Of a stretch of 64,000 bases of DNA, positions 13,078 to 35,808 are shown one piece after another (within the stretch, counting starts at the first letter, position 1; each line of letters opens with the position of its first letter). The notes below the pieces were generated by a model, which saw only the letters and a program-made list of their open reading frames with translations, was not told where the DNA came from and made no database searches. Location: the NCBI RefSeq assembly GCF_019977735.1, contig NZ_AP025018.1, forward strand, positions 558,001-622,000, written 5' to 3'. Made by a program: the position numbers and the translations under genes. This stretch comes from Calothrix sp. PCC 7716. Its GTDB lineage: Bacteria; Cyanobacteriota; Cyanobacteriia; Cyanobacteriales; Nostocaceae.

Positions 13078-13230
13078 AGAATCTGCGACAACACTTTAAA
13101 ATTAATGCCACACTCCACTAATACTCTGTCTCATAAAATTTGGCGAGTTGAATAAACGAACCGCAAAGTACGCTGCATAGCGCAAAGGAAGAATTAAGAG
13201 GCAAATAACACACTAATAACATCACTCACC

Positions 13231-14625: not shown

Positions 14626-14987
14626 CTCTTGTGGAACAGGCATCCCTGCCTGTTCCAGTAATTCTATATTGTTAAATATGATGGGGTAAACCTCTACCAT
14701 ATCCAATGGATGAAGAATGTTAGAATTTACCCAGTTAATGAGGGTATCTCGCTTATTTCTAGCAATTAATATTAATAATGTGATTGGTGTATATTTTTAC
14801 CACAGAGGCACAGAGTACACAGAGGGGCTTTGAGACAGGCGCCAATCTTCTAAAATTAATTACATAAACCACTAAATACAGGACGGGCAAGGATGCCCAT
14901 TCCACAAGATGTTAATTTTATTTTGTGATATTACACTTATTGGACGGTATAAGATATATTGCTCATGCAGACAAATTCTAACTTGAT
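14626..14987. other. Gap with R1 and R3 repeats
   Basis: R1 copies lie at 14628-14656 and 14881-14908, and an R3 copy (CACAGAGGCACAGAG) at 14797-14825. No gene seen. The promoter of hsdM is presumably in the last ~80 bases. Confidence 0.7.
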
Positions 14988-16535: not shown

Positions 16536-16806
16536 AATCTGCACTTATGTCATGCTGAGGAACGAAGCATCTGACAGATTTTCACATTGACTAAAAGCAA
16601 AGTTATAACCAGTTTTTAGTATATAGCAAAGATTGAAAATCGAACATCCGCCTATTACTTCACGTCAATAATATAAATAGCTTGTAGCACAGGCGTCCCG
16701 CCTGTGCAGTGATTAAGTAATTATCTTTACCACAGAGACACAGAGCGCACAGAGGTGCATAGTAAGAGAATTTAGTAATTGGCGCCAACCCATCATAAAT
16801 GTTGAC
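16536..16806. other. Gap between hsdM and hsdS filled with interspersed repeats
   Basis: An R5 copy (TCATGCTGAGGAACGAAGCATCT, 16549-16571), an R1 copy (16681-16707) and an R3 copy (16727-16755) are stacked here. The insertion of repeats between two normally adjacent genes suggests erosion of the operon. Confidence 0.7.
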
Positions 16807-19970: not shown

Positions 19971-20285
19971 ATGTCAAATAGTACAATAGTATATCCTGTT
20001 TACTATCGGTTAGTTGTCCGGCGCCATAAGACTTGGCATTTTACCAAAGGTGAACCGTTTATAAATTTGTTTAATGCACCTTGGCTTGAGCAGGAAGATT
20101 TATTTGCTGCATTTGATACTTCGATGAAGCAGGTAGCCAACCAACTGCGGTTAATTAATAATGGCAAGCAAGGCTTTTATATAGCTGATATTAAAGACAA
20201 AAAATATTATTATTGTGGCACTGAGTGGAAAGATGTAAAAAATAAGCTCAGAGAATTGGGCATTGGTAGAGATGACCCAATGTAG
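19971..20285 (+). CDS. Conserved small protein of unknown function (104 aa)
   Basis: A compact alpha/beta protein, MSNSTIVYPVYYRLVV at the start, with aromatic-rich strands (KKYYYCGTEWKDV). No known motif; the style resembles small cyanobacterial conserved hypotheticals. It stands alone inside the restriction island. A weak possibility is an accessory or antirestriction-like role, based only on location. Confidence 0.6.
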   Translation: MSNSTIVYPVYYRLVVRRHKTWHFTKGEPFINLFNAPWLEQEDLFAAFDTSMKQVANQLRLINNGKQGFYIADIKDKKYYYCGTEWKDVKNKLRELGIGRDDPM

Positions 20286-20315
20286 GGGCAGTTCTACAAT
20301 AATTTAACTAAATCT

Positions 20316-20345
20316 CTTGTGGGATAGGCATCCCTGCCCGTCCCA
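20316..20345. repeat. R1 hairpin repeat
   Basis: CTTGTGGGATAGGCATCCCTGCCCGTCCC-type copy between two convergent genes. A probable bidirectional terminator. Confidence 0.7.
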
Positions 20346-20356
20346 TACATAGCAAC

Positions 20357-21004
20357 TTACCCAGCAATATTATTTAACTGTGATTCGCATTCTTTGAAAA
20401 TGTAATTAACGGCAGCAAATAAGCGCTCTAATTCCTGAATTGTGTAAAAAGTTTTATTTTGGGTGAACAGGTTTGAGTTTAGTTTACCAAATTGCCAGAT
20501 GGCGCCATTAGAAACGATACCAAATATATTTGGAATTACGTCTGGTTCGGTATTTAGTCTTTGTGCTGCTATCATTTCTGCTAAACATTGCCCCCAACCT
20601 TCTGTAAAGTCGCTTTCTTTCTTGGCTTCAACTAAGACAATGTACGGTTTGTCAAAAACTACTGTTCCAAGGGGTGAGCGTTTTGCCAATATATAATCTG
20701 GGACACCACATAGTTTTTCGTCATACACTAATGTTTGGTGACTCCATAAAAGGAATTTACTGCGGTATTGTTTCCAGACCTCTCTTAGTACTGGGTAAAT
20801 TATATTCTCACAAATCGCTATTTCTGAATTATCAAATACGCTTTCGTTAAATGTTAATTCTAGTTCGTCTCTGAAAGTTTGACTGATTGTAAACTCTGTT
20901 TCAATAATGAAGTTTTCTCGTACATATTTAATGATAAATTCTTTGGCGACAGCGCTGATACTTTTATAACTACTAAAAGGCATTTCTAACTTATCCTGAT
21001 TCAA
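20357..21004 (-). CDS. PD-(D/E)XK nuclease-like protein in the restriction island
   Basis: A 215-aa protein with a readable PD-(D/E)XK core. Asp103 sits in GVPDYILAKR and Glu126 and Lys128 in IVLVEAKKESD. A following GWGQCLAEM supplies the Gln (Q139) often seen in the HsdR-N-like branch. It has no helicase domain. It lies on the strand opposite to hsdR, 213 bases away and divergently transcribed. It might be a separate restriction or repair nuclease, or a remnant of an older type I/III system. The motif is clear; the biological role is inferred. Confidence 0.8.
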   Translation of the reverse strand: MNQDKLEMPFSSYKSISAVAKEFIIKYVRENFIIETEFTISQTFRDELELTFNESVFDNSEIAICENIIYPVLREVWKQYRSKFLLWSHQTLVYDEKLCGVPDYILAKRSPLGTVVFDKPYIVLVEAKKESDFTEGWGQCLAEMIAAQRLNTEPDVIPNIFGIVSNGAIWQFGKLNSNLFTQNKTFYTIQELERLFAAVNYIFKECESQLNNIAG

Positions 21005-21041
21005 AGAGAAGTATCGATAATTATTGTAACTTATAAAATTT

Positions 21042-21125
21042 GATCCCCCCTAGCCCCCCTTAATAAGGGGGGGACAAGAGAGGGTTCTTAAAGCCCCCCC
21101 TTATTAAGGGGGGGTTGGGGGGGAT
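21042..21125. repeat. R4 inverted repeat
   Basis: GATCCCCCC-type inverted repeat, nearly the same unit as 12994-13077. It lies between the divergent nuclease gene and hsdR. An R1-like hairpin (CACAGGCAAAATGCCCGTG) follows at 21151-21174. Confidence 0.8.
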
Positions 21126-21217
21126 TTACTCTGTAGTAAAATTTATGACTGCACAGGCAAAATGCCCGTGCTACAATTGCTACATTATGATGTGTTGTAA
21201 AAGATACCGCAGTTTCC

Positions 21218-24200
21218 ATGACTTATGCGAACGAATATACTTTAGTAGAGAAGCCCTGTATCGGCGCCTTAACATCTTTTGGTTACACTTATCTACCTCC
21301 GCAACAAAACCAAGTAGTACGCGATACCCTTAATGAAGTTATTCTCCCCGATATTTTTATTACATCTATTCAACGCATTAACCAAATACCCGAAGAAGCT
21401 GCGCGCGCTACTTATCAAGATATGCTCCGAGTTACTGATAATGAGCAATGGACAAATTTACTGCGTGGTAACTATAGTCGTAATGTCCCTGGTGAGAGTA
21501 CAAAGAAAACTATTCGTATTATTGACTTTCTCAACCCTGAAAATAATACTTTCACTGTTACTAATCAGTTTTACGTCAAATCTCAAAACGCGCGCAGACC
21601 GGATATAGTTATTTTCGTTAATGGTATTCCCATTGTTGTCATCGAAGCTAAAAAGCCATTTACTGCCAAAGATAAGACTGGGGAAGCGTTTGAACAAATT
21701 AAACAGTATGAGCGTGATATTCCTCGCTTGTTCTATTCCAATGCTTTCAATATTATTACTGACGGCGCCAATGTTCTTTATGGTGCTACAAATGCCTCTT
21801 CTGCATACTGGGGTAGTTGGAACGATGACGAAAACACAGCAAATATAAGCTTTAACAACGAGTTAGAGAAACAGCTTTGGTATTTATTAGAACCTTCTCG
21901 ACTTTTAGATATATTGGCGCACTTCATTGTTTTTGAGAAGCGGGAGCAAAAGGTTACTAAAAAGATATGTCGTTACCAGCAGTATCGCGCGGTTAACAAG
22001 ATTGTACAGAGAGTACTGGCGCCTCTTCAACCAGACTCAACTGGACGCAAATATCGTAAAGGTTTAATTTGGCATACCCAAGGTTCGGGTAAAAGTCTGA
22101 CGATGGTGTTTGCTACTCTCAAGCTGAAAACGCATCGCACTATTAATTCTCCGACATTAGAAAATCCGAATATTTTAATTCTGACTGACCGCGTTGACTT
22201 GGATGAGCAAATTAGTAAAACTTTCCTTGCTTGCGGACTGCCTAACCCAACTAATATAAATTCTGGAAATGCGTTACAAGAAGCTATACATAGTAACCCT
22301 GTTGGCTTAACTTTGCTTTCGACTATATTTAAATTTGATGGTTCTGCACGAGAAGCAGCTAATAGCCATAATTGGATTATTTTAGTAGATGAATGTCACC
22401 GTACTCAAGAAAAAGATTTAGGCGCCTATTTAGAAAAGACTTTACCTCATGCTTGTTTTATCGGTTTTACTGGTACACCTATTCAAACCACCGATAAAGA
22501 TACTTACCAAAACTTCAGCCTTCCCAATGAAGGATATCTTGACCGTTATAGTATAGATGATGCCGTTACCGATGGCGCCACTGTGCCCATACGATATACC
22601 AGTCGTAAAGCTGAGTGGCAAGTTGATGAGAAAAAACTTGATATTTTATTTGATAACTGGTTTGCTCAGGAACCAAAAGAAGTTGTTAATAAAATTAAAG
22701 CGCGTGGTGTTAAAGTCGATGATTTAGTCAAACACCGCGAACGTATCGAACTCTTAGCATACGATATTTGGGCGCATTTCTCTGCTCATGGGGCGCCGCA
22801 AGGGTTTAAAGCACAAATCGTTGCTATCGATAGAGAAGCGATTATTTTATACAAGCGTGAGTTAAATAAAATTATTACCAAAAGCCTTCAAAAACAAGGT
22901 TTAGATAAAGAAACAGCTATTATTTGGGCGGATGCCATGAGTATCCCAGTTTACTCATCTAACCAAGAAGACGGTAAACCTAGCGAAGATATATATATAG
23001 ATAAGCTTCGCCAAGACTTGGTAAAATATGCTCTTGATAAAAATGGGGAAATTGCTGCAATTAGAAAGTTTACTGGGGATGATACAGAATATGAAGCCAA
23101 AGTTCTAAACGGTGAGGCGCCTTCTGTACATTTTCTCATCGTCTGCAATAAACTACTTACTGGGTTTGACGCACCAAGAGAAAGCGTCATGTATCTCGAT
23201 AACCCTTTAAAAGAGCATAACCTATTACAAGCAATCGCGCGTACTAACCGCGTTTATGGTACACACAAAGAATTTGGTTTAATTGTAGATTATATTGGTG
23301 TCACCAAAAATCTTAGCTCTGCCCTTGCCACTTATCGAGCCGCTGATATTAGAAACGCTTTGGTAGACTTGGAAGTAGAGCGCAACCAATTTAAAAACAT
23401 TCATACTCAATTAACAAAATTTCTGAAAACAGCAGAAATATCACTTCCTACTTCTTTTGCTGTAGGTGAGAAAAAAGGAACTTATCAAACCAAACGTACA
23501 CCCGACATCCGCGTTTCATATGACACCCTTATTCAAAATTTAGGCAATGAGGAAAAATGGTATACCCTCCGGCGCCTATCCAAAGATTTTATAAAAGCTT
23601 ACGATGCTCTAAGTCCCGACCCATTCATTCTTGACTACAAAGATGATTTAAAATGGATTGCAGGATTTTTACCTTTAGCAACGCTGACATTCGAGAAACG
23701 TGAGTCAACACTCAGACGTGATGTTAGTGCCAAAATCAGAGAAATGCTCTCAGAACATCTAACCATCACGGGAATAACGACATTATGTCAGCTACACGAC
23801 ATCAACGACCCAGAATTTTGGCAAGATTTTAGTAGTAGTGATAAAGATATTCAAATTGCTGTAGTACGTAAAAGCGCTGAACTACTTCAAATTATGCAGA
23901 AAAAGCTTGATGAGAATGAATTATATTATGCTACATTCTCTGAGCGAGTCAAAGAAGTATTAAACCAGTTTGAACAAAAACAAATTCAAGGCGCCGAAAC
24001 TCTCAGAAAATACGAACAAATTATTCGTGATATGCAAGCATCTGAAGGCGCCCATACCAATACAAGCTTAAATCAAAATGCTTACGGCATTCTCAAAATA
24101 TTAGAAGCGTTTCAAAACGAAGATAATATTCAACTCGAAGCTACCGCACAAGCTATTGATGTACTTTATACCAGTGAGGCGCCGTCTGGGTGGCAGTTAA

Positions 24201-24319
24201 AAGAGCAACTACGTAAACAGCTACGGCAACAAGTACGCGCTTTGGTATTCAAATTAGGTTTAAATAACTGGAAGGATATTCCAGGGAAAGTTGAAGAGTA
24301 CGCAATTAAACATTATTAA
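21218..24319 (+). CDS. hsdR: Type I restriction endonuclease subunit R
   Basis: A 1033-aa motor/nuclease subunit. N-terminal PD-(D/E)XK nuclease: Asp129 in RRPDIVIF, then Glu143 and Lys145 in VVIEAKKP. Translocase: Walker A in HTQGSGKSLTM near residue 290, DEAD-type box DECHRTQ near 390, GFTGTPIQ, and the SF2 motif VI region QAIARTNRVYG near 675. The C-terminal helical region binds the methylase complex. The gene is full length with no frameshift visible. It is separated from hsdS by about 3.2 kb of accessory genes. Confidence 0.95.
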   Translation: MTYANEYTLVEKPCIGALTSFGYTYLPPQQNQVVRDTLNEVILPDIFITSIQRINQIPEEAARATYQDMLRVTDNEQWTNLLRGNYSRNVPGESTKKTIRIIDFLNPENNTFTVTNQFYVKSQNARRPDIVIFVNGIPIVVIEAKKPFTAKDKTGEAFEQIKQYERDIPRLFYSNAFNIITDGANVLYGATNASSAYWGSWNDDENTANISFNNELEKQLWYLLEPSRLLDILAHFIVFEKREQKVTKKICRYQQYRAVNKIVQRVLAPLQPDSTGRKYRKGLIWHTQGSGKSLTMVFATLKLKTHRTINSPTLENPNILILTDRVDLDEQISKTFLACGLPNPTNINSGNALQEAIHSNPVGLTLLSTIFKFDGSAREAANSHNWIILVDECHRTQEKDLGAYLEKTLPHACFIGFTGTPIQTTDKDTYQNFSLPNEGYLDRYSIDDAVTDGATVPIRYTSRKAEWQVDEKKLDILFDNWFAQEPKEVVNKIKARGVKVDDLVKHRERIELLAYDIWAHFSAHGAPQGFKAQIVAIDREAIILYKRELNKIITKSLQKQGLDKETAIIWADAMSIPVYSSNQEDGKPSEDIYIDKLRQDLVKYALDKNGEIAAIRKFTGDDTEYEAKVLNGEAPSVHFLIVCNKLLTGFDAPRESVMYLDNPLKEHNLLQAIARTNRVYGTHKEFGLIVDYIGVTKNLSSALATYRAADIRNALVDLEVERNQFKNIHTQLTKFLKTAEISLPTSFAVGEKKGTYQTKRTPDIRVSYDTLIQNLGNEEKWYTLRRLSKDFIKAYDALSPDPFILDYKDDLKWIAGFLPLATLTFEKRESTLRRDVSAKIREMLSEHLTITGITTLCQLHDINDPEFWQDFSSSDKDIQIAVVRKSAELLQIMQKKLDENELYYATFSERVKEVLNQFEQKQIQGAETLRKYEQIIRDMQASEGAHTNTSLNQNAYGILKILEAFQNEDNIQLEATAQAIDVLYTSEAPSGWQLKEQLRKQLRQQVRALVFKLGLNNWKDIPGKVEEYAIKHY

Positions 24320-24326
24320 GATGCCA

Positions 24327-24358
24327 AGAAACCGGGTTTCTTCAGAAACCCGGTTTCT
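24327..24358. repeat. R2 hairpin, likely hsdR terminator
   Basis: AGAAACCGGGTTTCTT and AGAAACCCGGTTTCT nearly abut, eight bases after the hsdR stop. Confidence 0.8.
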
Positions 24359-24473
24359 AACTAAACTGCATAAAGTATCCTCACCAGACATATGAAGGTT
24401 TAGAAAGCAATGAGGGTTGGCGCCAAGATATGGCTTATACCTTCATTATCAACATAAACAAACCTTAAATATT

Positions 24474-24875
24474 ATGAAAATTCAATTGTCTCACTTTAAA
24501 GGTCAATTTCTTTTCCTTTTGGGTCTAACTATTCCTGCTGTTTTAGTGGCTAATGTACACCCTGTAAAAGCAGAAGTTCCTAGTCGAGTAATGAAGCATA
24601 ATGCTCCATTTATAGATATAAATCAGCGTTACGATTCATTAGGTGGATTACAGCAAGTTAATCCTATCAAAATTAATGGACAAGATGGCGGTACTGGAAA
24701 AGAAGCCAGCGACGACAAGAAAAAAGAATCAAAAGACGGTAAAGAATCTTGTGAAAGCGGTAACTGTGGAGGTATTTACAGACCTGGAGATGAAAGGATT
24801 AATCCAGTTATTAGAGGAAATATTCGCAATCAACTTCCTGGTCAACTTTTAAAGAGCAAACAACCAATTTTCTAA
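24474..24875 (+). CDS. Small exported protein of unknown function
   Basis: A 133-aa product starting MKIQLSHFKGQ with a clear Sec signal peptide (FLFLLGLTIPAVLVANV, cleavage probably after VKAE or HPVKA). The mature part is hydrophilic: a Gly-rich patch, a Lys/Asp/Glu-rich linker (SDDKKKESKDGKES) and a two-Cys motif CESGNC followed by GGIYRPGDE. The ATG at 24474 is chosen over one at 24417 because the signal peptide starts there. It ends 119 bases before the ATP-grasp-like pair on the same strand. It could be a substrate of that pair, but a repeat hairpin lies between them, so this is speculative. Confidence 0.65.
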   Translation: MKIQLSHFKGQFLFLLGLTIPAVLVANVHPVKAEVPSRVMKHNAPFIDINQRYDSLGGLQQVNPIKINGQDGGTGKEASDDKKKESKDGKESCESGNCGGIYRPGDERINPVIRGNIRNQLPGQLLKSKQPIF

Positions 24876-24883
24876 CAATCTTA

Positions 24884-24912
24884 GCCCCCCGAATTCGCGG
24901 GGGGTTGGGGGG
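24884..24912. repeat. Short R4-type hairpin
   Basis: AGCCCCCCGAATTCGCGGGGGGTT stem-loop, then an R5 copy at 24938-24965 (AGATGCTTCACTACG...). It could terminate the small exported protein gene. Confidence 0.7.
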
Positions 24913-24993
24913 ATTTTAATAAATTGAGAATACACACAGATGCTTCACTACGTTCAGCATGACATAGAGAATATTATATTAAAGAGGTAAGAA

Positions 24994-25791
24994 ATGGATT
25001 TATTAATTATTGGTGAAGTGGAAGATAAATTAGCGCAAGCTATCGTTGATTTTTTTACTGCTTTGAATAAAAATGTAGTTATTTTAGATGTTTTATCAGC
25101 ATCTCAATTATTCACATTAGAAATAATCAATGGAAAAGTCAGCGTTAGTCCCGATTTACCGATGATTATTCGTACTGTTTCCCCGTCTTTAATACGGAAG
25201 AATTTTGATGATACTTTTCAGTACGAGGAAGCTCTATCAACTCTTTGGGCTGTTGCAACTGCTAGTCAGGCGCCGATGTTAAATCGTCCTACACCTCGCA
25301 ATATGTGGGGACAAATTGCAAGTTCTAGTGTGTTGACTCAAGTTCGTGCTGATTTAATTCCCGATACTCAAGAGATATTTACTTGTCATCAAAAACAATC
25401 TTTTTCATTTGTACCCGAACAACAATGGTACGTTCAAGATTTAGGAACTTATGAAAGTGCTGTAGCTGGTGAAGTTCTTTCTGGAAGTGGCCCCTATCGT
25501 TATCGTTCAACTATAGCAGGCGCCGACTATGAGATTGTTGTTGTCTTGGCAAACAAAGCTTGGCGTTCTACTCAAGTACCTTTAGAACATTTAAATTTAG
25601 AAGACCGAAGTATTAGTTTATTGCGAAAGTTAAATTTAAATTTTGGTGTGGTGATTTGGAGTATTGAGCCAAATTTACAAAAAGCAGCGATAGCACGGGT
25701 AGAAAGTTTCCCCACTTGGGAACAAGTCGAATTAGTTTGGTCAGAGCTTGCAGATAGCTTATACGAGGTACTATGCCAAAAATCTATGTAA
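24994..25791 (+). CDS. Degenerate ATP-grasp-like protein, partner of the next gene
   Basis: A 265-aa protein starting MDLLIIGEVEDKL, with an AAGAGGTAAGAA ribosome binding site just upstream. The N-terminal ~120 residues resemble the pre-ATP-grasp domain of MvdC/RimK-like peptide ligases (IIRTVSPSLIRKNFDD, then NRPTPRNMWGQ). The C-terminal part keeps the fold outline (LLRKLNLNFGVVIWSI) but lacks the metal-binding Glu-x-Asn pair, so it is probably a non-catalytic subunit. It overlaps the following gene by 19 bases, implying a tight functional pair. Confidence 0.65.
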   Translation: MDLLIIGEVEDKLAQAIVDFFTALNKNVVILDVLSASQLFTLEIINGKVSVSPDLPMIIRTVSPSLIRKNFDDTFQYEEALSTLWAVATASQAPMLNRPTPRNMWGQIASSSVLTQVRADLIPDTQEIFTCHQKQSFSFVPEQQWYVQDLGTYESAVAGEVLSGSGPYRYRSTIAGADYEIVVVLANKAWRSTQVPLEHLNLEDRSISLLRKLNLNFGVVIWSIEPNLQKAAIARVESFPTWEQVELVWSELADSLYEVLCQKSM

Positions 25792-27407
25792 TTGGTCTAG
25801 ATAGTGACCGCACTTTTTGTTATTTCGTTAAACTAGCTACTAGTAAAGGAATTGAGCTAGAAGTAATTAACTTACGCGAAGTGATTACTGAGGGGGATTG
25901 GTCGATACAATTACCTGTAGATGGTAATAGTTGGATTAGAAGCGGCGCCACTACCTACCACCTTGACCCAAATGCAGGATATTATTGTCGAATCATCAAC
26001 CTTGCTTCTGTACAGTCAGATATAGTGCTTGCCCACCGATGGCAGGGTTTAGTTGTAGCTCTAACAGCTTGGTTAGAACAAATTCCTGGAAAAGTTATTA
26101 ATCGTCCTAACTGTCGTGGTGATAATAGCAGCAAGCCGCTACACGAATTATCATTACAATATTATGGACTTAAGGTAGCTCCGAGTATAACTAGCTCTAA
26201 TCCAATTAAATTAGCAGAATTTGTAAGTTCGCAACAAGCAATAGTAAAACCAATTTCTGGAATACGCGCGAATAGTCGCATTGTTAAACAAGAGGAATTT
26301 AAAGATTTTCATCCGACTCAAGGGCCTGTTCACCTACAAAAATTTATTCTTGGTTCGGATGTGCGAGTTCATGTAGTGGGCGATAATTATCAAGCCGAAC
26401 TTATTCAATGTCCTACCGTTGATTATCGTCTCGATTACCAATTAGCCGAACATTTTCCTAATCATCAAATTCCTTCAGATTTAGCAAGAAAAATTATTAA
26501 AGCAACAAAAGCTTTTGGTTTAGTTTTTGCTGGTTGGGATTTTAAACTCACTCCCGAAGGTGAATATTGGTGCTTAGAAGCTAACCCAATGCCAGGTTAT
26601 GATGGTTATGACCGCCGTTGTGAAGGTCAAATTACTGATTTAATTATAGATTATCTCACTCCAAAAACTAAATTAATACCAACAACTTCTATATCAAATC
26701 CTAATCAATTAATTACCGCACAACAAGGCGCCAGTATATATTCAGATATTAAAGCTCTACAAAAACATTGGCTCGTGCGCGGTAGTAGTGATAATATATT
26801 TGCTACCTTGGGTGCTGCTAGTTATTTAGACTGCGGTGAGTTTAAAGACACTCAAGATACTTATTTTCAAAAAGCTAGTCGTTATAATCTTATCTTGCGT
26901 AAACATTTCGGTTGTCTGTATAATTTAGTTAAAGAATATCTCCAAACTACACTCGGCGCCGAAGTTAAATATCGAGAAGATGCAGCATACCCAGGATTTC
27001 ATATTTGGTTATCTACTGCTATTCCCACCTTACCTGTAGCTTCAATGCACTTTGATTTACAGTATCAATATTTAACTTGGAATAAACCAGAAAATATAGA
27101 TTTTAGCCAAAGTTTATCTTTTACCCTACCAATTCAACTACCAGCTAGTGGTAGAGGCTTAAATCTTTGCGATATTAATTATATAGAGTATCTAGATATT
27201 CGACAATATAACCAACTCGATTGGGATTTAATTCCTCGATTTCGTAGTCAAAACTATCATCCTTACAAAGTTGGAGAAATGGTAATGCATTCTGGACATA
27301 CAATGCACCAAATCGCACCAACTAGCACTGTACAACAAAGCGATGCACGAGTCACCCTTCAAGGTCATGGGGTTTGCGTGGATGGTGTGTGGTGGATTTA
27401 TTGGTAA
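25773..27407 (+). CDS. ATP-grasp ligase fused to a 2-oxoglutarate/Fe(II) dioxygenase-like domain
   Basis: A 544-aa two-domain protein. Residues 1-295 are RimK/MvdD-type ATP-grasp: NRPNCRGDNSSK, phosphate-binding Lys159 in AIVKP, Arg198 in DVRVHVVG, and the Mg site Asp256...Glu269-Ala-Asn271 in WCLEANPMPG. Residues ~315-544 contain a jelly-roll-like domain with H426-x-D428 (SMHFDLQ), distal His512 in SGHTMHQIAP and Arg526 in ARVTLQGHG, the facial triad plus 2OG-binding Arg of the prolyl-hydroxylase type. A ligase and a hydroxylase on one chain suggest amide-bond formation and hydroxylation of the same peptide or small molecule. The substrate is unknown. Confidence 0.75.
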   Translation: MPKIYVIGLDSDRTFCYFVKLATSKGIELEVINLREVITEGDWSIQLPVDGNSWIRSGATTYHLDPNAGYYCRIINLASVQSDIVLAHRWQGLVVALTAWLEQIPGKVINRPNCRGDNSSKPLHELSLQYYGLKVAPSITSSNPIKLAEFVSSQQAIVKPISGIRANSRIVKQEEFKDFHPTQGPVHLQKFILGSDVRVHVVGDNYQAELIQCPTVDYRLDYQLAEHFPNHQIPSDLARKIIKATKAFGLVFAGWDFKLTPEGEYWCLEANPMPGYDGYDRRCEGQITDLIIDYLTPKTKLIPTTSISNPNQLITAQQGASIYSDIKALQKHWLVRGSSDNIFATLGAASYLDCGEFKDTQDTYFQKASRYNLILRKHFGCLYNLVKEYLQTTLGAEVKYREDAAYPGFHIWLSTAIPTLPVASMHFDLQYQYLTWNKPENIDFSQSLSFTLPIQLPASGRGLNLCDINYIEYLDIRQYNQLDWDLIPRFRSQNYHPYKVGEMVMHSGHTMHQIAPTSTVQQSDARVTLQGHGVCVDGVWWIYW

Positions 27408-27512
27408 CGAATTTAAACAGCCATGATTTGTAGGGATGTTTTTGTGTAACCTGTTATCTATAGGATATGTGGCTCATGTACGAGCGAATTAACAAAGGCA
27501 GGTTACGATTCA

Positions 27513-28097
27513 ATGGCTTATTCCTGGTTTAAAGCATTTCACATTATTGGTGTCGTCGTTTGGTTCGCTGGGTTATTTTACTTAGTACGTTTGTTCATTT
27601 ACCATATTGAGGCTGAACAAGAACCAGAACCAGCAAAAACGATACTTCAAAAACAGTATCAAATCATGGAGAAGCGTCTCTACAATATCATCACGACTCC
27701 TGGAATGTTGGTGACTGTCGCTTGTGCAGTTGGGTTGCTGGTTTCTCAACCTGACTGGCTACACCAAACTTGGTTACACGTCAAACTTGGTTTTGTTGTT
27801 TTGTTATTAGGCTATCACCATTACTGCAAACGCTTAATGAAGCAACTCGAAGCGGGTACCTGTAAGTGGACGAGTAAACAAATGCGCGCGCTAAATGAGG
27901 CGCCTACGCTTTTACTAGTTGCTATTGTATTACTTGCAGTGTTCAAAAACAGCCTACCTACAGATACAACCGTCTGGGTAATTTTTGGACTAGTTGTTCT
28001 CATGGCTGTTACTATCCAACTTTACGCTCGTAAACGGCGCCTTGATAAAGAAAAAGAATTAGCTCAAGTCGCTAGTACCCAACAACTACAAACCTAG
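27513..28097 (+). CDS. hemJ: Protoporphyrinogen IX oxidase HemJ
   Basis: A 194-aa inner-membrane protein that oxidises protoporphyrinogen IX to protoporphyrin IX in heme and chlorophyll synthesis. It has the family start YSWFKAFHIIGVVVWFAGL with the conserved His in helix 1, then YHIEAE, MEKRLYNIITTPGML, and HVKLGFVVLLLGYHHYC. Four or five membrane helices are visible. Cyanobacteria often use HemJ instead of HemY/HemG. Length is normal. Confidence 0.93.
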   Translation: MAYSWFKAFHIIGVVVWFAGLFYLVRLFIYHIEAEQEPEPAKTILQKQYQIMEKRLYNIITTPGMLVTVACAVGLLVSQPDWLHQTWLHVKLGFVVLLLGYHHYCKRLMKQLEAGTCKWTSKQMRALNEAPTLLLVAIVLLAVFKNSLPTDTTVWVIFGLVVLMAVTIQLYARKRRLDKEKELAQVASTQQLQT

Positions 28098-28114
28098 ACA
28101 AAGTTAAAAGTTAT

Positions 28115-28175
28115 GAGTGCTGAGTGCTGAGTAATAATTTATAGTTCTTAACTCAGCACTCAGCACTCAGCACTC
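28115..28175. repeat. Heptamer STRR hairpin
   Basis: GAGTGCT repeats, spacer, then AGCACTC repeats; the same unit as at 9565-9630. It sits downstream of hemJ. Confidence 0.8.
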
Positions 28176-28239
28176 TTTACTCTCAAAATGTCATACATTA
28201 AGAAATGTAAACCTTAATTTTGACATCTCTGGCGTAAGT

Positions 28240-28719
28240 ATGTCCGATAAACCTTTGGGGACACCTCGTCCTTTGTGGAAAGTAATATCATTATCTGTAG
28301 TTACGTTGATGTTGTACTACGGTTGGTACAAATGGATTATTCAAGAAGAACTGCGTAATTATAAGGGTAGCGGTTGGTCGGGTACGCTTTGTATGGCGCC
28401 GTTTGTTTTAGGTGTAGCAGTGCCGCAATTGTTACGTATATTTGACCCAGATGTACCAGGATGGTTTGGTTGGTTTTCTTTTCTGGGCATTGCTTGGATA
28501 TATATTGTGCAGTTTCGTTTGTATCGAGATGTAAATGAGTTATACCGCGAAGCTGGCATGAAAGAACCGTTAGTTGTTTGGTGGATATTTATACCAGGTT
28601 TGAATTTAGTTGTGGGTTTACGACAAATTCACTTTTTAAGTCAATATTGGGCGGAACAACAAGGTATTATTGTTAATGATACAGTTGCTAATAATATCCC
28701 TTTTCTTTCTACTATCTAA
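28240..28719 (+). CDS. Membrane protein of unknown function (DUF4234-like style)
   Basis: A 159-aa protein with three to four hydrophobic segments: LWKVISLSVVTLMLYYGWY, MAPFVLGVAVPQLL, WFGWFSFLGIAWIYIVQF and VVWWIFIPGLNLVVGL. The YGWYKWIIQEELRNY stretch resembles the family of small integral proteins with an N-terminal YxxYW-like element, but the assignment is weak. No catalytic motif. It stands alone between hairpin repeats. Confidence 0.7.
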   Translation: MSDKPLGTPRPLWKVISLSVVTLMLYYGWYKWIIQEELRNYKGSGWSGTLCMAPFVLGVAVPQLLRIFDPDVPGWFGWFSFLGIAWIYIVQFRLYRDVNELYREAGMKEPLVVWWIFIPGLNLVVGLRQIHFLSQYWAEQQGIIVNDTVANNIPFLSTI

Positions 28720-28721
28720 TT

Positions 28722-28797
28722 CTTACCTCTGTGTCCTCTGCGTCTCTGTGGTAAGATAAAAATTTTTTACCACAGAGGCACAGAGAGCGCAGAGAGA
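28722..28797. repeat. R3 inverted repeat (CCTCTGTGTCCTCTGCG / CACAGAGGCACAGAG)
   Basis: Two inverted arms flank a T-rich centre, forming a long hairpin between the membrane protein and the DUF6671-type gene. Related copies lie at 14797, 16727, 43848, 59034 and 60907. Confidence 0.8.
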
Positions 28798-28808
28798 TAC
28801 AAGTAAAA

Positions 28809-29663
28809 ATGCTAATACAATCATTATTTACCAACCGCATAGCTGTACTAGCAACCATGCATCAAAAAGAGCAAGTCATGGCGCCTATTTTAGAGGAATT
28901 AGGCTTAAAAGTCATAGTGCCAGCTAATTTTAATACCGATACATTCGGTACTTTTACTCGTGAAGTTAAACGACCAGGCACGCAAATAGAAGCTGCTCGT
29001 ATTAAAGCTCTTGAAGTATTAGAAATTACAGGTGAAACAATTGCTGTAGCAAGTGAAGGAAGTTTTGCGCCGCATCCTAGCTTACCTTATATTTCTAGCA
29101 ATCGCGAAATAGTTATTTTTATTGATAAAACTCATGATTTAGAAATTATTGGCGAAGAGTTCTCAATCGATACTAATCATAGTTGTAAAATTATTCGTAG
29201 TGTTGATGAAGCTTTTGAATTTGCCAGTAAAGTTGGTTTTCCTGAGCATGGCTTAATTGTGATGTTTGATGAAAATCCTAAGAATAGTAGTGAAGTGTTT
29301 AAAGGTATTAATACCAAAGATAAACTAACCGAAGCTGTAAATTTTGTACTAACTACTACCGGCAAAGCACATATTGAAACAGATATGCGCGCAATGTACA
29401 ACCCGACGCGAATGAAGAATATTGAAAAAGCTACTCGTAATTTAATTAGTAAAATAAATAGCTGTTGTCCTCAATGTTCGGCGCCTGGTTTTGATGTTAC
29501 TCAACGAATTCAGGGTTTACCTTGTGAATTATGCTATGCACCAACACTTTTAACCAAATCTGTTGTTTACCAATGTAAAAAGTGTGGGTATAAGGAAAAT
29601 AAGTTGTATCCGGATGGCGCCGAGTTTGCTGACCCAGGTCAATGTATGTATTGTAATCCTTAA
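28809..29663 (+). CDS. DUF6671-type protein with C-terminal zinc ribbons
   Basis: A 284-aa cytoplasmic protein. The N-terminal 200 residues contain IAVLATMHQKEQVMAPIL, TFGTFTREVKRPGTQIEAA and IAVASEGSFAPHP, the pattern I associate with DUF6671. The C terminus carries cysteine pairs CCPQCS, CELCY, CKKCGY and CMYCNP, which look like two zinc ribbons. Function unknown. It begins right after the R3 hairpin. Confidence 0.75.
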   Translation: MLIQSLFTNRIAVLATMHQKEQVMAPILEELGLKVIVPANFNTDTFGTFTREVKRPGTQIEAARIKALEVLEITGETIAVASEGSFAPHPSLPYISSNREIVIFIDKTHDLEIIGEEFSIDTNHSCKIIRSVDEAFEFASKVGFPEHGLIVMFDENPKNSSEVFKGINTKDKLTEAVNFVLTTTGKAHIETDMRAMYNPTRMKNIEKATRNLISKINSCCPQCSAPGFDVTQRIQGLPCELCYAPTLLTKSVVYQCKKCGYKENKLYPDGAEFADPGQCMYCNP

Positions 29664-29670
29664 TGAAATT

Positions 29671-29705
29671 TAGAAACCTGGTTTCTTAAAGAAACCAGGT
29701 TTCTT
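29671..29705. repeat. R2 hairpin between convergent genes
   Basis: TAGAAACCTGGTTTCTTAA followed by AGAAACCAGGTTTCTT; a likely bidirectional terminator for the flanking genes. Confidence 0.8.
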
Positions 29706-29714
29706 GGGTTGATG

Positions 29715-30680
29715 TTACCAAAATAAATGATTTAGGAAGTTGCGTCCAAGTTTGGCGCCATCCGGTTCTTGGTAATTTTTAGGTAGTAAGTTTTGCATGT
29801 TGTGTTGTAATTCGTCGATGACTGTTTGTATTTGCTGTGATTTGGGACGGGTACATTGAGGTAATATGATAGGTTCGCCAATTCTGATTGTTAACTGTTT
29901 GCGGAAAAATAGGTCTTTTGTTCCTATTAATGCTATAGGTAAAATTGGTACACCTGAACGTAGTGCATAAATTACGGCGCCTCTTTTTAAGGGTAATAAT
30001 TGACCTTCGACGGCGCCTAGTTTACCTTCAGGAAATAGCATTACACTTTCATTACGTGCAAAAATACCGCAAACAATACGGTCTAGTCTTCGCATTGACT
30101 CGATAGAATTACCCTTGGGAACGTATTTTTCAATGTCCGCAGCGAGAGCAGCTAAGTCTTCACGTCCGTTTTTTGCTGCTTCGATTACCGCTATTTCTTC
30201 TTTCCATAATCTATCTAATGGAATTACTCCCTTGGCAAAGTGCAATAATAATCTTTTCCATACACTATTATATAGTGTGCGTGCGTCACCTAAGATATGA
30301 AAGTATGGCTTTGCTGGTAATTCCGATAGCAACAGAAACGGGTCGATGTGGTTGAGGTGATTAGCTGCAAACAGTACTGGGGTGTCGGGTATTCTTTCGG
30401 GGTTTTCAACTTTGACCTTAAATAATGTATGGATTAGCCCACGTAACACCGCACGGCGAATTTTTCCACTGATACGATTTTCACAGGCCGAGAAGAGCGC
30501 ATTTTCTTGTGATGACAGCGCTTGTTCTATCATCTTGTTGCTTTTTGCACAACGCGCATATGCTACACCCTCACCTGCACGCTTTATTGTCGCTTCTGTT
30601 AATTCAGGTAAAGGTTGTTGATATTCGCTTGTTTGAGAGGGCTTCGACTGCAACATTGATACCATAGCGCTGTTTCTCAC
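29715..30680 (-). CDS. Lysophospholipid acyltransferase (PlsC-like)
   Basis: A 321-aa 1-acylglycerol-3-phosphate acyltransferase family protein that would transfer acyl chains to lysophospholipid or a related acceptor. The HX4D catalytic motif is in ANHLNHIDPF near residue 108 and the acceptor-binding FPEGKLG near residue 217. VPILPIALIGT follows, as usual for the fold. The ~75-residue N-terminal extension lacks a recognised domain. Start at 30680; an internal Met at residue 6 is possible. Confidence 0.88.
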   Translation of the reverse strand: MRNSAMVSMLQSKPSQTSEYQQPLPELTEATIKRAGEGVAYARCAKSNKMIEQALSSQENALFSACENRISGKIRRAVLRGLIHTLFKVKVENPERIPDTPVLFAANHLNHIDPFLLLSELPAKPYFHILGDARTLYNSVWKRLLLHFAKGVIPLDRLWKEEIAVIEAAKNGREDLAALAADIEKYVPKGNSIESMRRLDRIVCGIFARNESVMLFPEGKLGAVEGQLLPLKRGAVIYALRSGVPILPIALIGTKDLFFRKQLTIRIGEPIILPQCTRPKSQQIQTVIDELQHNMQNLLPKNYQEPDGAKLGRNFLNHLFW

Positions 30681-31490
30681 TCACTAATTTTTTATTCTTA
30701 TATATCAAAGCTACGCTATCTAATACCCTCTGGTATATTCATACAGGCAGTTTCTTCAAATGTCCCTAATACTCTTCTGTATATCCAAGAAAACTGCACA
30801 ATTACCGCTCCTCCAACCACTTGTATCAATGGACAGATGCACAACTGCCATATAGTATTATGCAGGCGCCTGTCGGTCAAATAAAAAAGCTCCCTCATCT
30901 AAAGACAAGGAAGCAGGGCGTGTGGTGTGAGGAGCAAACTCAATGTTTGCATTACTGTAATTATACTAAATTTTACATGAAGTAGTTACGACATCAATGT
31001 GAATTTTAAGTAATTTCTCTAAAAACGTGCTTGGCACGACTTTACAAATTACACATACATCTAGCTGTATAATTAGTAGGAGCATAAACTGTAGTATCTC
31101 TAACTACTTTTGATAGATGCCAATATCTAAAAAAAATCTTAAAACTAAAGTATGAATTGCGGATTTAATGCGATTCTGATTGTAATAGAACTTAGCACAG
31201 AAACCTGGTTTCTACCCAAAATCGTCGTTTTTATTATAAATTATCGACCAAGAAACCAGGTTTCTAGGATTTTTGCGTAAGTCCTGTGTAAGTATAGATT
31301 ACTTAATATATTGGAGACAAGTATATAAAGTCTCTAAATTTAAAAAAACACAACTCTAGATACAAGCATCAGCGATAATGCAACAAAGATTTGGAAAAAT
31401 GATGTAACATATTGTTAAGTGTTTATTCTGAATCTTGAAAGCGGATATTGGAATGCTAATACTTGAGGTCAGCTAGGAGATGCTGAGGCA
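30681..31490. other. Long gap without a convincing gene
   Basis: AT-rich. It holds an R2 repeat pair at 31199-31266 with the internal AAAATCGTCGTTTTTATTA segment. A 60-codon minus-strand frame at 30716-30898 encodes a hydrophobic peptide but has no supporting evidence. Confidence 0.6.
31199..31266. repeat. R2 repeat pair
   Basis: AGAAACCTGGTTTCTACCC, a CAAAATCGTCGTTTT spacer, and AGAAACCAGGTTTCTA; the same layout as the repeat at 10841-10948. Confidence 0.85.
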
Positions 31491-31733
31491 ATGAGTCCGT
31501 TATTAATAATTTCTCAATTCCTTACTCACAAATTTCCGTGGTGGGGAATTTGTCAACTTAAATTTGACCCAAAGTATAACACTTTGTACATGCGTTGTGT
31601 CAACCCAGATACTAGAAGAGCCATATTCAAGGAAGCTTCGGCACTGTCAAACTTGGATATCGGTATCGAACGGTTTATTGTTGTGTATCCTGGTTATCCT
31701 GATATTATTATTCCTTATGCTCATAGCCAATAA
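31491..31733 (+). CDS. Small protein of unknown function (80 aa)
   Basis: The frame starts with an ATG preceded at a suitable distance by AGGAGATGC, a fair ribosome binding site. The product, MSPLLIISQFLTHKFPWWGI onwards, has an alpha/beta look (LKFDPKYNTLYMRCVNPDTR). It ends just before a good intrinsic terminator, which supports it being a real transcribed gene. No family recognised. Confidence 0.6.
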   Translation: MSPLLIISQFLTHKFPWWGICQLKFDPKYNTLYMRCVNPDTRRAIFKEASALSNLDIGIERFIVVYPGYPDIIIPYAHSQ

Positions 31734-31754
31734 GGTTAAGAATACTAATAGAAC

Positions 31755-31787
31755 AAGGTTCCCCGAAATATATCGGGAACCTTCTTT
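31755..31787 (+). terminator. Intrinsic terminator
   Basis: AAGGTTCCCCGA / TCGGGAACCTT stem with a 6-base loop followed by CTTT, placed 22 bases after the small gene's stop. Confidence 0.8.
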
Positions 31788-31835
31788 AGTAAGCCCATGA
31801 CGGGGATTCAACTCGTGACCTCACCCTTACCAAGG
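31785..31835 (-). pseudogene. Truncated tRNA-Thr copy (3' half)
   Basis: A 51-base segment identical but for one base to the 3' part of the intact tRNA-Thr and its flank at 32105-32155. It stops inside the anticodon stem-loop (just after the anticodon on the tRNA's 5' side), so it cannot make a functional tRNA. This pattern is typical of an attachment-site duplicate left by an element integrated into a tRNA gene. Confidence 0.8.
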
Positions 31836-32104
31836 TGACGAACGAATGTTATGCTCAGGTACCAATGTCATGCTGAGGAACGAAGCATCTTTAAGATTTC
31901 CAAGCTTATTAAAAGTAAAGCTGTAGCCAGTTTTTAGTATAAAATCATCCTAAAGCCAGAAAATCAGAGAATTGTTTAGATAGGCACCTGACCTATACTT
32001 TTACAATACCTACTCAGTTAGTATTTACAAAACAAACTATCTTAGAGATTCTTCACTTCGTTCAGAATGACATATCCAAGCTTTTTTTAGCACATAATTA
32101 TAAA
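31836..32104. other. Segment between the two tRNA-Thr copies
   Basis: About 270 bases without an open frame. It holds two R5 copies in opposite orientation (31865-31890 and 32047-32072, the latter TTCACTTCGTTCAGAATGACAT-like). It may be the shrunken remnant of an integrated element. Confidence 0.5.
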
Positions 32105-33018: not shown

Positions 33019-35808
33019 TTAATTTGCTGGCACACGAACGTGGAAAGACCGGATAATACGTATCCAACGGTTTTCTGGGGTGTAGTAGCCAACTTCGGCA
33101 ATATAGTCGCGGTTACTAACAGGAATGTTGACGTGCTTATCAAAATCGTTTTCGTCGCAAGCGTATTCCTGAGTTGCGTGCGGTTGTTGATAGTCGATAT
33201 CTAAGTTTGTTGAGTCGTGGACTCGTAATATAAATCTATGCCCACCTTGGTCACGCGCGGCTTGTTTATAATCGGGTGACACTTCCCAATATGCATAAGC
33301 ATTTTGAGAGTTACGTGGCACAAGTATTATTTGACATGTTTTGGCTGCTAATGTTAGGCGCCTGTTACCATTACCAAGCGTGTACGAATTTTCGTTGGTG
33401 TCTTTTTTTTCTTTGGTTTCTTTGTTCCCATTAGGGTCGAAAGCTTTAGTGACGCTTCCTACGGCAACTGCACCCACACCCGCAACAGCACTACCTATTT
33501 GTGCTGCTCTATCGAACCAACTAACAGTAGTCTTAGTACCATTCGTGCCATTTTCTACTATGTTTGCTCTCGGTAATATTTCAACAACGGCGCCTTCACT
33601 TATATCGCTTGTATCATTAGTATCCGACTCGAAAACTGGCGGCAAAGATGATATTCTCACAGGCTCCGATGTTTTAACTTTTAGCCAGCTACCATCGTCT
33701 CGAATATAACCAAGCTGTGCGACATAATCACGGTTGGTTTGTGGAATTGGAATGTGCAAATCGTTGTTTACACTACATTCGTACTGCGTTACTGGCTCAA
33801 TTCCATTTAAATTAATATCGGCTACATCTGTATTATTTACTACGTCTGTAACATCGTAAAGGCGAAGTCCAAGTTTACGTCCACCAAGTTTGATAAAATC
33901 TGCTTTGCGCTCGGCTGGTATTTCCCAGTAAGCATAAGCTTCGTCTTTGGTGCGCTGTACAAGAATTACTTGCCCGTTGTCCACATTTGTGGAATTTGTT
34001 ATGGAATTTGTATCCTCTACAGTATTCACTGTATCTAGAATATCTACAGCACTTGCAGCATTACTTGGCTTTTGAATTTCGGTTTGCGACTGACGATTTA
34101 TATTGAGTAGAGTTAATAATCCCGCTCCTGATGCGGCGGCGGTGCCAGCTAAACCCATTACCGCATTATCAGCTTTTTCTGGTATACTATCGTTTTGATT
34201 ATCATTACCCCATAGCGATGCTGCTTGTAACTGTTCTGCCGTTGGCGCCACTGGAGCTTCCATATCTGCTGCGACACGAACTTGCGGAGAACTAGCGACT
34301 TTATACCAGCCATCATCAGTTGTAGGATAACCAATTTCAGCATAATAGTCACGGTTTGCTGCTGGAATGGGAACGTGTAAATCTGGTTCGCGTTCTACAC
34401 AATTCAATTCATGGACGAGTGTGGCAGGATGTAAATCAGTATCGGTATTAGTAACATCATATAAACGCATTTTTAAACCACGTCTACCTTGTCGTCGCAA
34501 ATCTTCTTGGACATCATGAGGAATTTCCCAATATGCATATGCGCTTTGAGTATTACGCGGTGTTAAAATCATCCGACTTTCACCTAGTTTAGCCACAGGC
34601 ACCACAGGTGTAACAGGTGTAACAGGTGCAACAGGCGTAACAGGTGTACTATCAGGTTTTCTCGTTAACCACCAAAGTCCACCTCCAAGTATTCCTATAA
34701 GTGGTAATAACCAAAGGAAATCTTTATCTGATGATACGGGTGTTGGTTCTGTAACGGCGCCGGGTGCATTAGCGACAGTGGTATCTTGATTTGTATTTGC
34801 TTGGTTGGGAGTTGCCGCAGTCTCTTTTGGTGCTGGTGCATTTTGGGGAGCAACTACAGTAGCTACTCTTGCTTGCTCGACAACTTTTTGATTTTGACTA
34901 GAAGAAGCAAAACCTAAAAACGCTTGTACTGCGGGCGTTGGTTTTTCACCTTTGTATACGTATGCTAAAGGTTGTGAGAAAGGATAGCGTGGGTCTGTTG
35001 GTAAAACATTGTGCATTGGCACGACTCGCACGTTGGAATTTTTCACAACTTGGTCGGCAATTGCATAACCAATACCATCTTTACCCAATGCTTTAATTAC
35101 AGCAGCAGTACTATCTTCTTTTACTGTTACCGCATTGGCGCCAGCTTTGAGGGGTGCGTTCTTAAATACTGGATAATTTTGAAATGCTTTTCGAGTATCG
35201 CTAGTTTCCGGACGGTCAACCAAGCGAATTTTTCCTTTACCTAATTTGAGTTGCGACAAGTCAGTTGCTTGCCCCCGAAAAATTTGAGCAAACTGATTAA
35301 TTGTAATACTCGCTTTCAGCGGATTATCTTTGCTGACAAATGTGGCTATTTTATTACGTGCCACAGGTACAGCAACCAAACCCTTCGCTTTTTCCGCATC
35401 AGTTAGCGGACGACCAATAGACGCTAAGTCAGCTTTACCATCTAAAACTGCTTTCAAAGCTGCATCAGTTCCATTGTAGGCAGTCTTGACATCGGTCTTA
35501 GGAAACTGAGTTTTAAAGTTCTTGGCTAAAGCATCATTAATTTTCGCCATGCTGCTCGAACCGTTAATGCGTACCACTGTTCCGTCTTTAACTGTTTTCG
35601 GCAATGGGAAAGTTCCCTGTGTCGAAGATTGAGCCACAGTAGGAGAAATTTGAGTAGTAGTAGCTACTGGTACACTAGCACTCAATATTAGCAATACCGC
35701 CAACGCGGATAAAGAACCCTTTTTATCAGCCACCCTTACAGTCGCTCCTCTTTCACTTTCAAACGTTAATTTTGAACTAATAGCCGATATGGAACTTAAT
35801 ACAACCAC
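33019..35808 (-). CDS. PstS-like binding domain fused to three DUF4912 domains
   Basis: A 929-aa membrane-anchored protein. A signal/TM segment lies near residues 32-52. A PstS-like phosphate/anion-binding domain spans ~65-310 (INGSSSMAKINDALAKNF carries the phosphate-loop Ser cluster). A TM helix FLWLLPLIGILGGGLWWL follows near 365-385. Three DUF4912 domains of ~100 residues come next, each with an AYAYWE motif (SAYAYWEIP, EAYAYWEIP, NAYAYWEVS) and a DLHVPIP/NRDY motif. Low-complexity Pro/Val/Thr repeats precede domain 1. The topology would put the PstS part in the periplasm and DUF4912 in the cytoplasm, or the reverse. Known from cyanobacteria, function unsettled. Confidence 0.8.
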   Translation of the reverse strand: MVVLSSISAISSKLTFESERGATVRVADKKGSLSALAVLLILSASVPVATTTQISPTVAQSSTQGTFPLPKTVKDGTVVRINGSSSMAKINDALAKNFKTQFPKTDVKTAYNGTDAALKAVLDGKADLASIGRPLTDAEKAKGLVAVPVARNKIATFVSKDNPLKASITINQFAQIFRGQATDLSQLKLGKGKIRLVDRPETSDTRKAFQNYPVFKNAPLKAGANAVTVKEDSTAAVIKALGKDGIGYAIADQVVKNSNVRVVPMHNVLPTDPRYPFSQPLAYVYKGEKPTPAVQAFLGFASSSQNQKVVEQARVATVVAPQNAPAPKETAATPNQANTNQDTTVANAPGAVTEPTPVSSDKDFLWLLPLIGILGGGLWWLTRKPDSTPVTPVAPVTPVTPVVPVAKLGESRMILTPRNTQSAYAYWEIPHDVQEDLRRQGRRGLKMRLYDVTNTDTDLHPATLVHELNCVEREPDLHVPIPAANRDYYAEIGYPTTDDGWYKVASSPQVRVAADMEAPVAPTAEQLQAASLWGNDNQNDSIPEKADNAVMGLAGTAAASGAGLLTLLNINRQSQTEIQKPSNAASAVDILDTVNTVEDTNSITNSTNVDNGQVILVQRTKDEAYAYWEIPAERKADFIKLGGRKLGLRLYDVTDVVNNTDVADINLNGIEPVTQYECSVNNDLHIPIPQTNRDYVAQLGYIRDDGSWLKVKTSEPVRISSLPPVFESDTNDTSDISEGAVVEILPRANIVENGTNGTKTTVSWFDRAAQIGSAVAGVGAVAVGSVTKAFDPNGNKETKEKKDTNENSYTLGNGNRRLTLAAKTCQIILVPRNSQNAYAYWEVSPDYKQAARDQGGHRFILRVHDSTNLDIDYQQPHATQEYACDENDFDKHVNIPVSNRDYIAEVGYYTPENRWIRIIRSFHVRVPAN

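Follow-up and report, generated by a model that had tools for sequence, protein, structure and literature searches.

A candidate graspetide-type gene cassette with a fused ATP-grasp and oxygenase protein and a pseudo-ATP-grasp partner in Calothrix sp. PCC 7716

Corallotide, which was described in 2026 as graspetide group 15 and is assigned to CorABCD of Corallococcus, is the nearest characterised system found for the genes discussed here. According to the accessible part of its description, CorB joins the Lys and Asp of KxxxD repeats, and a separate enzyme, CorC, hydroxylates the linked lysine, leading to 5-hydroxylysine isopeptides; CorC also activates CorB (PMC13097080). A stretch of 64,000 nucleotides of Calothrix sp. 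PCC 7716 (contig NZ_AP025018.1, positions 558,001 to 622,000, “the window”) contains three adjacent genes, named A, B, and C in the following (Table 1). As judged from sequences and fold models, they probably form a graspetide-type cassette for a ribosomally synthesized and posttranslationally modified peptide (RiPP). A would encode the precursor, B a pseudo-ATP-grasp protein, and C an ATP-grasp protein fused to an Fe(II)/2-oxoglutarate (2OG) oxygenase-like domain.

As far as corallotide is described in that text, the cassette shares with it a long repeat precursor with KxxxD units, the combination of a graspetide synthetase with an Fe(II)/2OG oxygenase, and a partner-dependent synthetase, which is CorB there and is proposed here. 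It differs in the fusion of synthetase and oxygenase in cyanobacteria, which are separate cassette genes elsewhere, in the extra pseudo-ATP-grasp partner, in the Sec-like signal of the cyanobacterial precursors, and in its occurrence in three phyla instead of one genus. PF13640, the family of the corallotide oxygenase, gave no match up to an E value of 1 for five sequences of the oxygenase family and none for C, a comparison that did not include CorC itself. A CorD-like, beta-lactamase-like protein (PF00144) was not found among the 10 window proteins scanned, to which this search was limited. Since neither a PF13640 match nor a CorD-like gene appeared among the proteins scanned, the cassette was not classed as corallotide, and by gene content it falls outside this group. 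Two general marks of a graspetide system were found by sequence and model: a synthetase of this family as predicted from the fold and an adjacent precursor with a conserved leader and a donor/acceptor-rich core at 26 of 28 loci.

The strongest evidence for a peptide as the substrate was gene A, located directly upstream of B. The first-pass annotation of this region had suggested looking for conserved small open reading frames (ORFs) nearby as possible substrates and had overlooked this gene. A and its relatives followed one plan: the leader motif [FY][IL]x4RxD, then a repeat of lysines and acidic residues, and finally a short tail that in most cases ended in hydrophobic residues. All 15 distinct cyanobacterial A proteins started with a signal-like sequence, which was judged from a hydrophobic stretch (best 12-residue mean between 1.84 and 2.5) plus an AxA-like site and not by a signal-peptide program. 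The best 12-residue mean of the 11 non-cyanobacterial A proteins was not above 0.57, and these proteins lacked such a hydrophobic stretch. The dN/dS ratio (nonsynonymous to synonymous substitution rates) against three congeners was 0.03 to 0.11 for A, 0.16 to 0.20 for B, 0.11 to 0.16 for the ATP-grasp part of C, and 0.11 to 0.20 for its oxygenase part.

The leader motif was constant in all 26 distinct A proteins across 3 to 36 core units. Among 3652 ORFs of at least 40 amino acids in the tested loci (from the window, only positions 20001 to 32000), 35 contained the motif and 28 the motif plus at least three KxxxD/E units, and all 28 were the A gene of their own locus. The motif had been derived from 17 of the same A proteins and was loosened once (RxD) after locus L071. 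Therefore, only L095, L096, L097, L099, and L100, fetched after the motif was fixed, were independent tests, and all five passed. The published graspetide leader motif is Phhx(1,2)h in the accessible text of PMC8939145. A proline preceded the F/Y-I/L pair in 24 of the 26 A proteins and, by reading, the last hydrophobic position misfits some of them. A constant leader, a variable core, and an adjoining synthetase follow the logic of RiPP biosynthesis. Instead, A may be a secreted repeat protein with a structural or metal-binding function while B and C act on something else. The highly charged core would suit such a protein, as would the failure to recognise a processing protease (Pfam for the 10 window proteins, by eye elsewhere). 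This is very improbable, given the linkage of A, B, and C across cyanobacteria, actinobacteria, and a Rhizobium metagenome-assembled genome (MAG) and the conservation of the leader motif despite differing cores.

The results for B and C rest, like those for A, on sequence, fold prediction, and gene context; this concerns the folds of B and of the ATP-grasp part of C, the residue inventory with the iron/2OG set, the association of the three genes, the leader and core patterns, and the distribution of fused and separate genes. The two ORFs of the first-pass annotation were recovered with 265 (B) and 544 (C) amino acids, and so was their overlap of 19 bases (positions 25773 to 25791). The ATP-grasp site attributed to C was also present: Lys159, Asp256, Glu269, and Asn271 were each invariant in the 22 rows spanning the ATP-grasp part of a single alignment with 34 rows. 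Some oxygenase rows of this alignment begin upstream of the likely start codon, and later oxygenase alignments were trimmed. B had been described as a protein that retained the ATP-grasp scaffold and lacked the metal-binding residues, and the aligned positions confirm a loss of catalytic residues. In all 20 rows, Asp149 of B took the place of Lys159, and no acidic residue was aligned with Asp256 or Glu269. Asn271 was matched by E in 9 rows, D in 8, and N in 3. This residue pairing depends on one profile-profile alignment, which was colinear over the whole length (E value of 3e-5, probability of 73%; 8e-5 and 60% in a repeat). B possessed its own invariant set, for instance, Asn97-Arg98-Pro99, Gly166-Pro167, and Trp222.

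The AlphaFold2 model of B had a mean predicted local distance difference test (pLDDT) score of 88.1 (20 sequences). Its best PDB matches were the graspetide synthetases PsnB, PruB, and MdnC, with identities of 10 to 18% in the first four rows; the match to PsnB had an E value of 4.6e-10, a template modeling (TM) score of 0.66, and 10% identity. By model and sequence, B is thus assigned as an ATP-grasp pseudoenzyme that kept the fold and lost the catalytic residues. The model of C (28 sequences) reached a pLDDT of 87.0 and a predicted TM score (pTM) of 0.56, which leaves the arrangement of the domains uncertain. All 30 best-ranked PDB chains in a Foldseek search with C, representing six enzymes, were graspetide synthetases, headed by PsnB (7drp_A; E value of 7.8e-21, TM score of 0.75 by target length) with 21 to 24% identity and including PruB and MdnC.

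C may alternatively be a RimK/LysX-like ligase that does not cross-link A but attaches free amino acids to its C terminus or its acidic side chains. The structures of RimK, ArgX, and LysX also matched C, and RimK-family models were among its profile matches. ArgX followed as the first match behind the graspetide synthetases with an E value of 1.2e-14, and the rank of those 30 chains makes this ligase activity distinctly improbable. Graspetide synthesis remains the preferred function for C. Neither Pfam nor NCBIfam contained a family for B, and both matched C only below threshold, for instance, TIGR04187 with an E value of 5.7e-19 and 68 bits compared to a cutoff of 350. A search of plasmids with C yielded 26 records, none covering 80% and those listed being distant ATP-grasp proteins such as TgmB, and a plasmid search with B yielded no match.

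The cassette of A, B, and C recurred in cyanobacteria, actinobacteria, and the Rhizobium MAG. A total of 32 loci were tested, comprising two remnants (L077 and L078) and 30 loci with B plus ATP-grasp, 28 of these with A. After two duplicates with identical DNA had been dropped (L042 and L098, identical to L024 and L028), 28 distinct intact loci remained, and A was upstream of B in 26. A was missing in L025, which has what looks by eye like a transposase gene directly preceding B, and in L038, whose contig starts with B. Of 60 related genomes, 6 contained a homologue of A, and these were exactly the ones with a full-length C. Of the 16 distinct cyanobacterial loci, 15 encoded synthetase and oxygenase as one protein, with no oxygenase seen in L030; the two were separate neighboring genes in 11 of 12 non-cyanobacterial loci, with none seen in L038 at its contig end. 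In L039 and L040, the oxygenase gene was ahead of A. Because the two are separate neighbors elsewhere, the fusion in the window joins two genes of one cassette, a natural “Rosetta stone.” The cassette is rare and patchy. B was counted in 10 of 388 genomes of the window’s order and in 2 of 246 from the genus of L035. For the orders of L031, L037, and L038, it was counted in 4 of 200, 1 of 76, and 1 of 118 genomes, respectively. These counts include the center genomes and are lower bounds, since the first-look search scored only some candidates per genome. Two congeners retain only remnants (L007/L077 and L008/L078): the terminal portion of C ahead of HemJ, and a disrupted B together with a truncated ATP-grasp gene. 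This indicates that the cassette is dispensable.

The cores were examined for the linkage that the synthetase may introduce. KxxxD/E units occurred in all 26 distinct A proteins, and K[DE]xx[DE] units numbered 3 to 4 in the 15 cyanobacterial and 9 to 36 in the 11 other proteins. Outside cyanobacteria, the units were mostly spaced by 3 residues. At least one step of seven residues was present in 11 of the 15 cyanobacterial cores, and two such steps in a row, connecting three successive units, in 6. The window core contained four units, the last three overlapping, with two ending in D and two in E, and its steps were 8, 3, and 3, as in three near relatives. A spacing of +4 from lysine to acid was above all 2000 within-core shuffles in the eight non-cyanobacterial cores tested; the P values for nine cyanobacterial cores were 0.04 to 0.12. 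The spacing of +1 was enriched as well (0 of 2000 shuffles in the eight non-cyanobacterial cores, P values of 0.06 to 0.16 in the nine cyanobacterial cores), and that of +7 in six of the eight non-cyanobacterial cores. The spacing alone is therefore no proof of an i,i+4 linkage.

A graspetide cassette with other linkages needs to be considered here, in which Lys or Ser would be connected to acids at other spacings, such as Ser esters in KDASD or KESSD, and not by i,i+4 lactams. The +1 and +7 enrichments would fit, as would the serine retained in the cyanobacterial cores as a possible ester acceptor, and both macrolactones and macrolactams can occur in graspetides (PMC13097080, accessible part). 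By reading, many units in several non-cyanobacterial arrays (KDFKD, KDGKD, and KEGKD) contain neither Ser nor Thr, and Lys and acid were kept in all 26 A proteins, which renders other linkages possible but somewhat unlikely. The i,i+4 lactam stands at about an even chance.

The C-terminal half of C should contain the oxygenase. His426, Asp428, His512, and Arg526, which the first-pass annotation had proposed as a hydroxylase set, were each invariant in all 24 rows spanning this part, and so was His506; the HxD...H iron triad and the 2OG-binding Arg of Fe(II)/2OG enzymes were thus all present. A separate alignment of the oxygenase part likewise contained invariant HxD, H, H, and R residues in 21 of 21 rows. 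The domain was strand-rich in the model. The fold search was done with the whole of C, and the best 50 of 1489 rows were all ATP-grasp proteins, so that the jelly roll is supported by sequence and not by an independent fold match: the invariant residues and a profile match to WelO5 point to this identity. WelO5-type halogenases carry a Gly in place of the iron-binding Asp (HxG). A profile of the oxygenase part (21 sequences) found structures of this type as distant relatives (best E value of 2.4e-5), and the Pfam model WelO5 was matched below its cutoff by three of five family members scanned, with no match for the window’s own copy. Unlike these halogenases, C and its relatives keep the Asp.

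The oxygenase may act on Asp by beta-hydroxylation or on another residue, close a ring, or halogenate, instead of hydroxylating a cross-linked lysine. That its nearest solved structures are WelO5-type enzymes, halogenases by their Pfam name, agrees with such chemistry, as does SmaO of graspetide group 18, which hydroxylates Asp in the accessible text of PMC13097080. A 2025 paper on ring closure by 2OG enzymes in RiPPs points the same way by its title, as given in the reference list of PMC12710340. The HxD motif in 24 of 24 rows speaks against halogenation, and taken together, these other reactions are rather unlikely. Hydroxylation of the linked lysine is favored, with slightly less than an even chance. 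The oxygenase family of C was also present in a lanthipeptide-like cluster (L073) with an NHLP-like precursor and a LanM-like enzyme (by eye), which is in line with action on a RiPP.

From these data, the following mechanism may be proposed. A would be a precursor with a Sec signal in cyanobacteria, followed by an enzyme-bound leader motif and the K[DE]xx[DE] core. The ATP-grasp half of C would phosphorylate Asp/Glu side chains and couple these with lysines, leading to repeated small lactam rings with Lys(i) and Asp/Glu(i+4) as the most likely pair. The oxygenase half would then hydroxylate each cross-linked unit, most likely at the lysine, like CorC in corallotide. B, as a catalytically dead paralogue retained as a partner, would bind the leader or complete and activate C. 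Such a role of B as leader-binding or activating partner is rather likely, and Sec export of the product in cyanobacteria is similarly to be favored. The active ligase, pseudoenzyme partner, and built-in Fe(II)/2OG oxygenase of a compact peptide-modification pathway, as outlined in the first-pass annotation, are supported by fold, residues, and gene context. That annotation had matched the pathway to no named one; a near precedent exists with corallotide.

By analogy, the product could be a stapled helix. A synthetic peptide with Lys-Asp i,i+4 bridges at positions 3,7; 10,14; and 17,21 was helical by nuclear magnetic resonance (PMC3609778, accessible part). The 6 of 15 cyanobacterial cores with three KxxxD/E units at seven-residue spacing resemble this layout; unlike the cassette, that peptide was made chemically and has no biological link. 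In its full form, which is rather unlikely, the cassette would be a natural helix-stapling machine. The fused enzyme, docked on its dead copy, would lay Lys(i)-Asp/Glu(i+4) lactams and hydroxylate each bridge, every 7 residues in several cyanobacteria or in an overlapping ladder of every 3 residues in actinobacteria, and in cyanobacteria a rigid, protease-resistant rod would be exported by Sec. The window’s own core without the layout of three units at seven-residue spacing argues against a stapled helix, and so does the circular dichroism spectrum of corallotide, which was seemingly unaffected by the modifications (PMC13097080, accessible part).

Evaluation of the graspetide-type assignment as a whole needs to consider several opposing points. 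The cassette is known from genes and models. C stayed under the curated cutoff of every NCBIfam graspetide model it matched, the pTM of its model left the domain arrangement uncertain, and the profile match between B and C was modest. The window core was less regular than the cores of the relatives, the +1 and +7 spacings were enriched beside +4, and the retained Ser could be an ester acceptor. L030 lacks a visible oxygenase, two congeners can dispense with the cassette, and a transporter was recognised as little as a protease by the Pfam scan of 10 window proteins or by eye elsewhere.

Other described systems come less close. PsnB of plesiocin, PruB, and the microviridin macrocyclases MdnC/MdnB share the fold of the ATP-grasp half of C; the cassette differs from them in the core pattern, the fused oxygenase, and the dead paralogue. 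In loci of ATP-grasp branch 8, too, an active ATP-grasp protein is accompanied by an inactive one. In the accessible description, the latter has been shortened to two N-terminal domains, and the loci are associated with peptidases (PMC8939145); B, by comparison, aligned from end to end, and a peptidase was not recognised. Graspetide groups 34 and 35 have long precursors with repeated motifs, and the companions in group 34 are without a Pfam or TIGRFAM match (PMC13097080, accessible part). The cassette shares the repeat precursor with both groups and, with B lacking a Pfam or NCBIfam family, the companion with group 34; the fused oxygenase differs from both as described there. Set beside them by description only, the cassette may be one of these two listed groups. 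Other ATP-grasp operons with oxygenases, different from this cassette, appear in the accessible part of PMC2922099. The titles and abstract starts of the papers retrieved from the open-licence PMC literature, supplements lying outside this range, contained no report naming this repeat or fusion, which does not imply absence in print.

Table 1. Positions of the cassette features in the window
Feature	Position	Strand	Basis or remark
Gene A, 133-amino-acid precursor peptide (predicted)	24474..24875	+	ATG at 24474; in-frame upstream TTG at 24417 also possible
Probable Sec signal peptide of A, ends VKA/E	24474..24572	+	Hydrophobic stretch plus AxA-like site
Leader motif PFIDINQRYDSLGGL	24606..24650	+	[FY][IL]x4RxD, 26/26 distinct A proteins
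Core of A (KEASD, KESKD, KDGKE, KESCE), residues 76-94	24699..24755	+	K[DE]xx[DE] units
Hairpin between A and B, possible attenuator	24879..24910	+	dG of -23.1 kcal/mol, z of -3.3
Gene B, putative full-length pseudo-ATP-grasp partner	24994..25791	+	Profile alignment, fold, aligned residues
Gene C, graspetide-synthetase-like ATP-grasp fused to Fe(II)/2OG oxygenase-like domain	25773..27407	+	Alignment, fold, profile matches
ATP-grasp part of C, residues about 1-300	25773..26672	+	Foldseek match to PsnB; own gene in 12 non-cyanobacterial loci
Oxygenase part of C, residues about 309-544	26697..27404	+	WelO5-type profile match; invariant HxD, H, H, R

The hairpin between A and B could reduce the expression of B and C relative to A. 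Nothing comparable was present in the three relatives folded, and the hairpin was therefore dropped as a feature of the family. The cassette is flanked by ordinary genes, HsdR upstream and HemJ downstream, and the flanks varied among the divergent relatives whose ORFs were listed. Close relatives among named records were Calothrix and Dulcicalothrix, with 94 to 95% identity in C.

Additional genes were found around the non-cyanobacterial cassettes. A gene for a luciferase-like oxidoreductase (PF00296, E value of 2.2e-58 in L035) preceded A in 6 of the 12 loci (L031, L032, L035, L036, L099, and L100). Five of the 12 (L039, L031, L032, L099, and L100) had a second oxygenase gene, of the PhyH type, next to the cassette (PF05721, E value of 5e-5 in L039, positions 3032-3844). 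This gene was downstream of the cassette in four of them and may provide a further tailoring step. A pentapeptide-repeat-like gene (by eye) was just upstream of A in L037, the Rhizobium MAG, and in L072 (L071; genus of L035), which suggests transfer of a cassette subtype. Additional members of the oxygenase family were near the cassette at L035:2759-3544 (minus strand) and L072:5686-7262. The lanthipeptide-like cluster of L073 (G219:C44, positions 7815 to 16969) encodes a LanM-like protein of 1104 amino acids, the NHLP-like precursor, and a radical-SAM-like protein, and contains two oxygenase genes of the family of the C-terminal half of C, each beside a GNAT-like gene (names by eye, except for the oxygenases). 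Elsewhere in the window, a gene at 33019-35808 (minus strand) encodes a phosphate-binding (PstS-like) domain fused to DUF4912 repeats.

In this cassette, one polypeptide would unite two activities that are separate in corallotide, where CorC activates CorB, and a conserved dead synthetase, B, is added, the role of which is directly testable. Loci in which the genes are separate, fused, or differently ordered form a ready-made comparison. If the i,i+4 linkage is true, this would mean that bacteria make arrays of the Lys-Asp bridge employed by chemists to stabilize helices, and the cassette would provide an enzymatic route to multiply stapled peptides.
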